Positions 51,359 through 54,201 of a stretch of DNA of 64,000 bases are shown in pieces. The notes beneath the pieces are model-generated. The model worked only from the letters and a program-made list of their open reading frames with translations. It was not told the origin of the DNA and searched no databases. The stretch covers positions 3,658,001-3,722,000 of the forward strand of contig NZ_CP079946.1 of NCBI RefSeq assembly GCF_019968905.1, given 5' to 3'. This DNA comes from Corallococcus sp. EGB (GTDB lineage: Bacteria; Myxococcota; Myxococcia; Myxococcales; Myxococcaceae). The position numbers were made by a program, and so were the translations under genes. Position 1 is the stretch's first letter, and each line of letters starts with the position of its first letter.

Positions 51359-51739
51359 ATGAACCGCCTTCCTCTCGCGCTCCTGTCCCTCGTCGGTTTC
51401 CTCCTCCTTCCCGGCTGTGGCGGGCCGAGCTCGGGCGACTCGTGCAGTGACCGTGACTTCGTGTGCCAGGACGGCGCGCAGGCGCTGGAGTGCCGCAACG
51501 GCACCTGGCGTCCGCTGGCGTGCCGCGGGCCGCTGGGATGCCGGGAGCTGGCGGACAGCGTGCGGTGCGACACGTCCCTCAACCAGGAGAACGACGGCTG
51601 CGCGATGTCCGCCGAGGGCAAGGGCGTGTGCAGCCCGAACGGGCGCGCGCTCCTCACCTGCAAGCAGGGCGTGCTGGTGAAGACGGCGGATTGCTCCTCG
51701 TGCGCCGTGCAGGACAACCAGGCCGTCTGCCAGCCGTGA
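51359..51739 (+). CDS. Cysteine-rich lipoprotein
   Basis: A 126-residue exported lipoprotein. The lipobox L-P-G-C ends the signal near residue 20. Thirteen or so cysteines follow in the mature part (C-S-D-R-D-F-V-C, R-P-L-A-C-R-G-P-L-G-C, A-D-C-S-S-C), suggesting disulfide-linked small repeats like many myxobacterial surface lipoproteins. Function unknown. It ends 2 bp before the convergent AhpD-like gene. Confidence 0.85.
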   Translation: MNRLPLALLSLVGFLLLPGCGGPSSGDSCSDRDFVCQDGAQALECRNGTWRPLACRGPLGCRELADSVRCDTSLNQENDGCAMSAEGKGVCSPNGRALLTCKQGVLVKTADCSSCAVQDNQAVCQP

Positions 51740-51741
51740 CG

Positions 51742-52404
51742 TCAGCGCTCGGGGTCCCCTCCGGAGGCCGGCGGTGGGGCTCCCGGCGGCGGCGCGGGCA
51801 GGTAGCCGCCCGCGGCCATGCGCTTCCCGGACCGCTCGTACATGGCCGGTGAGAGGCCCTGGACGCCGGTGCCGTCAATCCACCGGTTGTAGAAGTTGAA
51901 GAGGGCGCAGACGGAGACGGCGTCGTAGACGGCCTCATCCGACCAGCCGGCCACCTTCAGGCGCTCCACGTCCTCGCGGCGCACGTCACCGGGCGTGTCG
52001 TTGAGCCGGTCCACGAAGGCGAACAACGCCTTCTCGGCCTCCGGGATGGGGGCCGTCTTCACGTCGTCCAGCACCGCCTGCACGTGCTGCGTGCTGCCCA
52101 GCAATTCCGCCGCGACCGCGGCGTGTGAGCCCGTTCAAAACACGCAGGCGTTGCGCCTCGACGTGTACGCGGCGATGAGCTCCCGCAGGCCCGCGGACAG
52201 CGGGGACGGGCCGCGCATCACCTCGTGGGTGAAGGCGGACAGCGCGTCCGTCATGCGCGGCTTGAACGCGAACAGGTGCCAGATGCCCGGTGGCGTCATG
52301 CCCCCGGCCCGCGCCATGGCGATCATCGTCCCGTAGGTTCCGTCGGATTCATGCGACTCGACGTCGGGCAGGTACATGCTTTGCGGAGCGGGGGACGGCT
52401 TCAT
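51742..52404 (-). CDS. AhpD-like protein, probable selenoprotein (in-frame UGA as Sec90)
   Basis: One continuous frame of 220 codons from ATG 52404, interrupted by a single TGA at 52135-52137. Before it the protein reads A-Y-T-S-R-R-N-A-C-V-F, after it T-G-S-H-A-A-V-A-A-E-L-L-G. With the UGA as Sec the motif is C87-V-F-U90-T-G-S-H94, the C-x-x-C-x-x-x-H catalytic motif of AhpD-like/carboxymuconolactone decarboxylase-type peroxidases (COG2128) with Sec for the second Cys. Both sides belong to one family: P-R-M-T-D-A-L-S-A-F-T-H-E-V-M-R-G upstream, and A-F-V-D-R-L-N-D-T-P and L-F-N-F-Y-N-R-W-I-D downstream. A SECIS-like hairpin follows the UGA. AhpD-like selenoproteins are known in bacteria. 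Alternatives: a nonsense mutation or a base error. Role: thiol-dependent peroxide removal. Without Sec insertion only 89 residues would be made. Confidence 0.75.
52108..52123 (-). promoter_or_regulatory. Bacterial SECIS-like hairpin
   Basis: Directly downstream of the UGA in the mRNA: CGCCGC, loop GGUC, GCGGCG, a perfect 6-bp stem. The first loop base is 17 nt after the UGA, within the 16-37 nt range of bacterial SECIS elements and close to E. coli fdhF (about 18 nt, same GGUC loop, from memory). GC-rich coding could form such a stem by chance. Confidence 0.6.
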
Positions 52405-52438
52405 CGCACTTCCTGGCGAAAGGGCAGCAGGTGCCCCA

Positions 52439-53224
52439 TCAGGCCAGCGACGCGAGGAAGCTGTCCAGCACCGCGTTGAAGGCCTCCGGCTGTTCCTGGT
52501 TGGGCAGGTGCGCCGCGCCTGGAATGACCTCCAGCCGCGCGCCCTGCACCAGGTCCGCCATCTGCTTCGCCTTCGTCAGGGGCGTCACGGTGTCGTGCTC
52601 GCCGACGACAACGAGCGCGGGCCCCGCGTAGCGCGCGAGCAGGTCCTTGCTGTCCAGCCGCAGCGCCATGCCCCGCTGCGCGGCGGCGATGGACTCCGGC
52701 GACACGGACATGCCCAGCTTCGTCACCTCGCGGCCCACCGGGGACTCCGGCCCCGCGTGGACCAGCTTGGGCACCAGCCCCGGGATGACGGACGCCGTGC
52801 CCTCCTTCAGCGCCTGCTGCGCGGTGGCCTCGCGCTTGTCCTTCCCCGCGGCGTCGTCCGCGGTGCACTGCGTGTCCGAAAGCACCAGCCCGCGCACCCG
52901 GCCCGCGTCCTCGCGCAGGAGCGCCAGCGCCGCGTAGCCGCCCATGGACACGCCGCCCACCACCGCGGAGTCGATGTTCAGCGCGTCCAGCAGCGCGAGC
53001 GCGTCCTGCGCCAGCTTGCGCATCTCCGTGGGGCCTTCGCCCAGGCGGCTCTGCCCGAAGCCTCTCAGGTCCGGCACGAGGAAGCGGTAGCGCCCGGACA
53101 GCGCGGACACCTGCCGGTCGAACGCGGAGCCATCCAGCGGGAAGGCGTGCATGAGGAGCACCGGCAGCCCCTGGCCCACGTCCCGGTAGTGCAGCGGAAT
53201 CCCATCCACGGCGACCGTCAGCAT
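52439..53224 (-). CDS. Alpha/beta hydrolase (enol-lactonase/peroxidase-like)
   Basis: A 261-residue alpha/beta hydrolase. The nucleophile elbow is V-G-G-V-S-M-G-G-Y, the oxyanion region is L-M-H-A-F-P-L-D, and the catalytic Asp/His are in V-V-G-E-H-D-T-V-T-P and G-A-A-H-L-P-N-Q-E-Q-P. The closest known types are 3-oxoadipate enol-lactonase and non-heme chloroperoxidase; the substrate is not defined. It lies 34 bp upstream of the AhpD-like gene on the same strand, so the two are probably co-transcribed, which would fit oxidative-stress or peroxide chemistry. Confidence 0.88.
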   Translation of the reverse strand: MLTVAVDGIPLHYRDVGQGLPVLLMHAFPLDGSAFDRQVSALSGRYRFLVPDLRGFGQSRLGEGPTEMRKLAQDALALLDALNIDSAVVGGVSMGGYAALALLREDAGRVRGLVLSDTQCTADDAAGKDKREATAQQALKEGTASVIPGLVPKLVHAGPESPVGREVTKLGMSVSPESIAAAQRGMALRLDSKDLLARYAGPALVVVGEHDTVTPLTKAKQMADLVQGARLEVIPGAAHLPNQEQPEAFNAVLDSFLASLA

Positions 53225-53259
53225 GCGTGCCTCCTCGCGGCCCGTCTCAGGGTGCGGCG

Positions 53260-54201
53260 TCAGATCCACTTCTTGTACTTGAACCAGGCGACGAGCCCCA
53301 GCGGGAAGCCCACCATGGTCGCCCACATGGCGGTGTACCAGCCCCGTCCCGTCAACTGCTCGAAGTTCTGCCCGAAGAAACCCACGATGAAGGACAGGGG
53401 CAGGAAGAGGGTGGCGAAGATGGTGAGCTGCTTGCTGATGTCGTTGGTGCGGTTGGCCACCATGGACAGGTAGCCGTCCATCACGTTGCCCACGACGTCG
53501 CGGCTGGAGTCGATCTGCTCGTACAGCCGCACCAGGTGGTCGTAGACGTCGCGGAAGTACAGCGTCGTCTTCTCCTGGATCTGCGGGATGCCCCGGCGCG
53601 ACAGCATGCCCACCACGTCCCGCTGCGGGGACAGCACGCGGCGCAGCGTCACCAGCGCGCGCTTGAGCGCGAAGATGCGCTGGAGGTGCTCCGGATCCGG
53701 CTCCGCGAAGATGGCGTCCTCCAGGTCGTCCAGCTGGTCGCTGAAGTCGTCCATGATGGGGAACTGCGCGTCCACGAGCGCGTCCGCGAGCAGGTACAGG
53801 ATGACGTCCACGCCCCGGCCCAGCGTGCCCGCGGGGTCGTCCATCACGCGCCGCCGGACGCCTTCATGGCTGGGCAGCTTCAGCGCGTGCACGCTGATGA
53901 TCCAGTCCTGCGCGAGGAAGAAGTGCTGCTCGTGCAGCGTGAGCTCCGTGACGTCCGGCCCGCAGCTGAAGCCCTGCAGCACGATGAACTGGTGGTGCGG
54001 GTACTCCTCCAGCTTGGGCCGCTGGTCCAGCGTCAGGCAGTCCTCCACGGCCAGGCGGTGGAGCTGGAAGCGCTCGGCCAGCCGGCCCATCACCTCCGCG
54101 TCCGGCTCCAGCACGTCGATCCACTTGGTCCCCGGCCGGTCGAGCAGTTCTTCGCCCCCCGAGACAGCCCTGCCGTCCTCCCACAGACAGACCTGGATCA
54201 T
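53260..54201 (-). CDS. corA: CorA-type divalent cation transporter
   Basis: A 313-residue CorA-family protein. A long cytoplasmic N-terminal part (W-I-D-V-L-E-P-D, E-D-C-L-T-L-D-Q-R-P-K, I-F-A-L-K-R-A-L) ends in the stalk helix, then two membrane segments: T-I-F-A-T-L-F-L-P-L-S-F-I-V-G and A-M-W-A-T-M-V-G-F-P-L-G-L. The signature loop reads F-F-G-Q-N-F instead of the usual Y-G-M-N-F, so the GMN filter is GQN. It ends in the basic K-Y-K-K-W-I. Mg2+ is the usual ion; the altered loop makes the selectivity uncertain. ATG 54201 is followed by I-Q-V-C-L-W. Confidence 0.9.
   Translation of the reverse strand: MIQVCLWEDGRAVSGGEELLDRPGTKWIDVLEPDAEVMGRLAERFQLHRLAVEDCLTLDQRPKLEEYPHHQFIVLQGFSCGPDVTELTLHEQHFFLAQDWIISVHALKLPSHEGVRRRVMDDPAGTLGRGVDVILYLLADALVDAQFPIMDDFSDQLDDLEDAIFAEPDPEHLQRIFALKRALVTLRRVLSPQRDVVGMLSRRGIPQIQEKTTLYFRDVYDHLVRLYEQIDSSRDVVGNVMDGYLSMVANRTNDISKQLTIFATLFLPLSFIVGFFGQNFEQLTGRGWYTAMWATMVGFPLGLVAWFKYKKWI

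Follow-up and report, generated by a model that had tools for sequence, protein, structure and literature searches.

Two short open reading frames (ORFs) on the minus strand of Corallococcus DNA very probably form one intact enzyme in which a UGA codon is read as selenocysteine (Sec) at the active site. The explanation that we favor, with high confidence, is that the locus encodes a single AhpD-like (TIGR01926) protein, that SelB and a hairpin next to the codon would direct the decoding of UGA as Sec, and that the product presumably acts as a peroxidase or reductase. An earlier note on this DNA had read the locus as a hidden selenoprotein, a reading that our analysis supports; no potential refutation that was checked went against it.

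An AhpD-like gene with an internal TGA

The gene occupies positions 51742-52404 (minus strand) of the window, the 64,000-nucleotide stretch of DNA that was analyzed, which comes from a genome of 9.43 Mb in one contig. From 52404 to 51745, a single frame is interrupted solely by a TGA at 52135-52137; it is closed by a terminal TGA at 51742-51744, giving a predicted 220-residue protein whose residue 90 is Sec. Both minus-strand fragments described in the earlier note, said to share one frame and to be separated by one TGA, were found: an ORF of 89 amino acids at 52135-52404 that ends with the internal TGA, and one of 120 amino acids at 51742-52104 that begins from an internal TTG in the same frame. 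The joined protein matches the TIGR01926 "peroxidase-related enzyme" (AhpD-like) model with 107.2 bits, above the cut-off of 81.8, and has a Pfam CMD match, so the label AhpD-like is right.

The UGA (52135-52137, minus strand; U90) aligns with the second Cys of the CxxC motif in Cys-containing homologs. The surrounding motif is N-A-C87-V-F-U90-T-G-S-H94, and in the pattern E-x11-C-x2-C-x3-H the TGA stands in for the second Cys, which bears out the earlier placement of the codon in a C-x-x-C-x-x-x-H motif. Nearby on the same strand lie the codons for Glu75 (52180-52182), Cys87 (52144-52146), and His94 (52123-52125), which we propose to encode a proton-relay residue, the resolving cysteine, and a catalytic-base histidine, respectively.

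Directly downstream of the UGA is a candidate bacterial SECIS hairpin (52108-52123, minus strand), CGCCGC-GGUC-GCGGCG when read from 52123 to 52108. Published bSECIS constraints, as given in PMC13188914, comprise a loop of 3-9 nt, a stem of 4-16 bp, a G within the first two loop nucleotides, a spacing of 16-37 nt, and a minimum free energy of at most -7.5; the hairpin passes each of them, with a 4-nt loop beginning GG, a 6-bp stem, a distance of 17 nt from UGA to loop, and -10.8 kcal/mol. The stem, loop, and spacing reported earlier as matching bacterial SECIS rules are confirmed to that extent. For the 16-nt hairpin, 193 of 200 shuffled sequences fold less well (z -2.53); over longer stretches, stability is no better than that of shuffles at 60 nt (z 0.07) and has a z of -0.73 at 34 nt. 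Moreover, if this gene is recoded synonymously, six pairs are expected in 16.8% of the versions, such a hairpin being favored because the coding is rich in Ala and Val in GC-rich DNA. Judged on a single sequence, the hairpin carries little weight. An Rfam search of 51500-52700 gave no SECIS-type match, although Rfam may or may not contain a bacterial SECIS model; two sub-threshold matches in that region have no meaning here.

Conservation of the codon and its hairpin

Whether homologs carry Sec or Cys at this place, a question raised by the earlier note, is answered by 95 distinct genes in which the homologous codon is TGA in 93, TGC in one, and TGT in one. Before removal of duplicates, the alignment held 110 rows, of which 30 were loci from the class (of 40 matching genomes) and 80 came from named records (the best-matching 80 among 175 relatives), with TGA in 108, TGC in L078, and TGT in L101; the distinct genes are fewer because some contigs stand twice among the rows. 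None of the 95 differs at the equivalents of Arg74, Glu75, Asn85, Cys87, and His94. Further Cys-form genes (L131, L134, L135, L136, and L143-L148) have TGC at the site. This comparison shows that the UGA behaves as a sense codon, conserved and exchangeable with Cys.

Surveys of genomes point the same way. At E <= 1e-30, 40 of 147 genomes of the class match the gene, each with an internal TGA, and 107 have no match; the location of the TGA was confirmed at the codon for the 30 that contributed loci. A single TGA is present in 37 of the 40, two TGAs in G055 and G080, and a TGA plus a TAG in G045, with one TGA in each of these three falling within the TIGR01926 profile range. The extra stops in these genomes and in 12 of the 110 rows are consistent with the normal end of the frame, 112-136 codons past the site; 6 of the 110 rows reach a contig end. 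Across 195 genomes of the phylum, a hand count found 95 TIGR01926 matches, 47 with one internal TGA (including six weaker ones in which the place of the TGA is unchecked: G051, G092, G128, G133, G136, and G137) and 48 with no stop. None of the 95 has an internal TAA or TAG. Scattered nonsense changes in relatives, which the earlier note had suggested would count against its reading, were looked for and not found among these matches, where an internal stop, if present, is always a single TGA. Finally, dN/dS (NG86, seven hand-picked relatives) is below 1 on either side of the TGA in 7/7 comparisons, indicating purifying selection.

The hairpin is conserved far beyond chance across the homologs compared. 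Among 76 distinct TGA sequences (distinct 48-mers from the 108 TGA rows), which are not independent because homologs share ancestry, 72 retain six pairs and 4 retain five, at a constant position downstream of the TGA. Synonymous resampling (n = 1000) yielded six pairs in a mean of 13.6 sequences and a maximum of 27, versus the 72 observed. A criterion of at least five of six pairs gave a synonymous mean of 50.3 and a maximum of 63 versus 76 observed; it discriminates poorly, and we therefore rely on the six-pair count. Sliding the hairpin in steps of 3 gave five pairs in 21/76 sequences at +18 and in 0-2 at the other testable shifts (-9 to +15). The loop starts with GG or AG in all 76. In one homolog, L077, two pairs are altered on both sides and the amino acids are changed too, yet six pairs are kept.

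Genes with Cys at the site served as controls. None of 12 has six pairs and three have five, the individual counts being 4 for L078, 4 for L101, 0 for L131, 5 for L134, 3 for L135, 5 for L136, 3 for L143, 4 for L144, 3 for L145, 4 for L146, 5 for L147, and 3 for L148. Within the L143-L148 group, L146 was placed by alignment and the rest by motif; for a further sequence, L132, neither an alignment across the site nor the motif was obtained. The Cys gene L134, from Streptomyces, has four stacked pairs and a GGCC loop at the same place as the hairpin of Sec forms. A separate Sec-form TIGR01926 member, L149 (genome G190), carries its TGA in a C-F-Y-U-T context and has five of six pairs but a different best hairpin, which counts against a single universal element; it may stand for a Sec lineage of the phylum that arose independently.

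A tree was built from 83 of the 95 genes plus two outgroups, with 12 genes left out; 56 of its 85 rows are titled Acidobacteriota. The TGT homolog L101 is nested in a supported clade (95/82) whose other members are Sec forms; this suggests that it lost Sec, although the branch is long and the placement insecure. The TGC homolog L078 sits at the base of the tree and says little. Myxobacterial sequences group together at 83/92, below the full-support mark of the tool. Among them is L080 (BNCN01000010.1), titled Comamonas sp. KCTC 72670, whose gene order and sequence are Myxococcus-like; this record is probably mislabeled. L116 and L127, Sec forms whose bins bear the titles Cyanobacteria and Chthoniobacterales, lie inside the Acidobacteriota part of the tree, reflecting either wrong binning or transfer. 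The gene is also found on a 1.04-Mb plasmid, Gemmatirosa kalamazoonensis plasmid 2 (NZ_CP007130.1), where two places match; in the one that was read, the Sec codon is TGA and six hairpin pairs form. We raise, tentatively and with more doubt than conviction, the idea of a soil Sec-AhpD clade (Myxococcaceae, Acidobacteriota, Gemmatimonadota, and others) in which an almost fixed dual-use stretch would encode H-A-A-V-A-A as well as the SECIS element, constraining the protein across phyla, and in which this enzyme would be among the main reasons why soil bacteria with a largely aerobic life retain their Sec machinery.

Selenocysteine machinery and neighboring genes

The selA, selB, selC (tRNA-Sec), and selD genes that the earlier note had proposed to look for are all present in the same genome. 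The matches to selA (565 bits), selB (319 bits), and selD (388 bits) each exceed their cut-offs. A tRNA-Sec scores 70.5 bits, and ARAGORN also calls a tRNA-SeC with anticodon TCA; the tRNA-Sec family search gave 7 matches in this genome, a second one of them at 47.6 bits, barely above the gathering score of 47. Within the class, selA is matched in 130 of 147 genomes (E <= 1e-60). It is present in 40/40 genomes that carry the AhpD-like gene, and the gene occurs in 0/17 genomes without a selA match at this threshold, both being raw counts that ignore kinship and genome incompleteness. Two of those 17, G050 and G076, have TIGR01926 matches that are stop-free.

Against this background, two accounts that dispense with Sec can be weighed. 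If the TGA were an ordinary nonsense mutation in a pseudogene, or an error of sequencing, the two fragments would be dead, and the stop codon that interrupts the frame would be explained. We give this essentially no credence, and regard it as ruled out by conservation: the internal TGA occurs in every matching class genome and at this very codon in nearly every distinct gene, the phylum matches are free of internal TAA and TAG, the extra stops of some longer alignments fit the normal frame end, and selection persists downstream of the TGA. Sequencing error, in particular, is untenable because the TGA recurs in 16/16 genomes of the genus and 40/40 matching genomes of the class. Scarcely more probable is that the UGA is recoded or read through, but by near-cognate readthrough or with another amino acid, and that the hairpin merely follows from Ala and Val codons. 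The protein sequence does partly predict the hairpin and some Cys forms show partial ones, as this account would have it; it is at odds, however, with a site that coincides with the catalytic Cys position and is replaced by Cys codons only, with the full sel machinery in the genome, with the lack of the gene in the 17 class genomes that have no selA match, and with six pairs in 72/76 TGA sequences versus 0/12 Cys genes. Sec insertion remains the reading that we favor.

Upstream of the gene, at 52439-53326 on the same strand, is an alpha/beta hydrolase (Pfam Abhydrolase_1) whose stop is 34 bases from the AhpD start. The two genes may be co-transcribed, the hydrolase having no part in the recoding. 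Among 80 named loci, 15 have this neighbor, and each of the 15 belongs to the Corallococcus/Myxococcus/Pyxidicoccus group by title or sequence, with the Comamonas-titled L080 assigned on sequence; for this reason a functional link between the two is uncertain. Loci outside the myxobacteria show no steady partner gene; the clusters, judged by eye, are broad families of TonB-type receptors, MFS transporters, and kinases.

Elsewhere in the same genome, an FdhA-like molybdopterin oxidoreductase has a TGA at C1:9358358 (position 1921 of locus L141) followed by H-A-S-T-V and accompanied by a hairpin with a GGUCU loop. This UGA presumably sits where the formate dehydrogenases of E. coli carry Sec. 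Although its score is below the curated cut-off of the Fdh-alpha model, the gene is a probable second selenoprotein of this genome, judging from its sequence. A formate-dehydrogenase-like gene at about C1 5280164 (L137 and L138) switches frame, matching the profile over 1-346 and then 350-672 in parts two bases apart, which points to a frameshift, a misassembly, or a gene that is broken.

Predicted function and relation to known AhpD-like proteins

An AlphaFold2 model of the protein, computed from an alignment of 30 sequences, is all-helical with a mean pLDDT of 92.6. The nearest solved structures are 6k40, 2prr, 2oyo, 3c1l, and 2pfx (Z 20.6-21.4, with 21.4 to 6k40), and the positions of the Glu, the Cys, the Cys or Sec, and the His align with those of 6k40 and 2pfx. 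The protein thereby combines an AhpD-core fold with the Glu, CxxU, and His (E75, C87, and H94) that are invariant in the 95 genes.

In AhpD, the second Cys attacks peroxide with the help of a Glu-His relay. We propose by analogy that the same second-position attack takes place here, with Sec. The hairpin immediately 3' of the codon would guide SelB and selenocysteyl-tRNA-Sec to read the internal UGA as Sec, and the resulting protein would be an all-helical AhpD-fold peroxidase or reductase. The attack would come from Sec90, activated through a relay of Glu75 and His94; the role of Glu75 is one that we take to carry over from M. tuberculosis AhpD. Cys87 may then resolve Sec90 as a selenenyl-sulfide, which some thiol donor would re-reduce.

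The protein could alternatively contain Sec without being a peroxidase, for example as a CMD-fold decarboxylase or dehalogenase-like enzyme tied to the upstream hydrolase, as in pcaC/pcaD pairs. The resemblance of that hydrolase to 3-oxoadipate enol-lactonase (139.7 bits, below the cut-off of 255.85) and the shared fold of the debrominase Bmp8 (Z 16.5) lend this some plausibility. We consider it unlikely in view of the restriction of the hydrolase neighbor to 15/80 named loci and of the closest folds and TIGR01926, which are peroxidase-related by name.

The gene indicates that Corallococcus, Myxococcus, and their relatives very probably make selenoproteins, and it provides a Sec enzyme amenable to testing in bacteria that are open to growth and manipulation. 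The homologs, with their unusually constant SECIS element, form a set useful for studies of SelB recognition and of Sec/Cys exchange.

The Cys-form structures 6k40 (AhpD of D. radiodurans), 2oyo, 2pfx, 3c1l, and 2prr have the fold in common with our protein over 183-189 residues at 22-28% identity; in the alignments to 6k40 and 2pfx, the E-x11-C-x2-C-x3-H spacing is the same, with Cys where Sec stands here. M. tuberculosis AhpD (1knc and 1gu9), which works with AhpC and lipoamide, has the same core (Z 11.6-11.8 over 134-136 residues) at 12-13% identity. The model NF041238 (AhpD_rel_CFYUT, AhpD-related (seleno)protein) gives a weak match of 50.4 bits against a cut-off of 175, and only positions 185-334 of its 357 are matched.

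That AhpD-like selenoproteins are established in other bacteria, as the earlier note had maintained, holds: the selenoprotein family table of PMC13188914 lists "AhpD-like protein, TIGR01926, CxxU," and the same family appears as COG2128 in PMC9312934. An AhpD-like family with a predicted SECIS 3' of the UGA was reported from the Sargasso Sea (PMC1088965), "AhpD-like 1" was counted 299 times in PMC2398784, and PMC1794560 gives an AhpD-like selenoprotein found twice in bacterial genomes. The last of these also documents Sec use in the myxobacterium Anaeromyxobacter dehalogenans, where the 11 selenoproteins listed include none that is AhpD-like. Selenoprotein genes are often missed or annotated as truncated, according to PMC13188914. 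Among the matches listed, no paper on a myxobacterial AhpD-like selenoprotein was apparent by title and abstract opening, which is not a claim of absence from print; the terms "Myxococc" and "AhpD" are absent from the main text of PMC5029168. The family model, the CxxU motif, and the single Sec are the same here as in the known family. The lineage is different: apart from the example protein MCB9421940.1, the sources named for that family in these reports are metagenomes from the sea or other waters and a small number of genomes, Alkaliphilus metalliredigenes among them, whereas the present gene belongs to the Myxococcaceae, has relatives titled Acidobacteria, Gemmatimonadetes, and Planctomycetes, and shares with them one nearly fixed hairpin. 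Because an AhpD-like CxxU family is already listed (PMC13188914), the Corallococcus gene is a good new example rather than a new kind.
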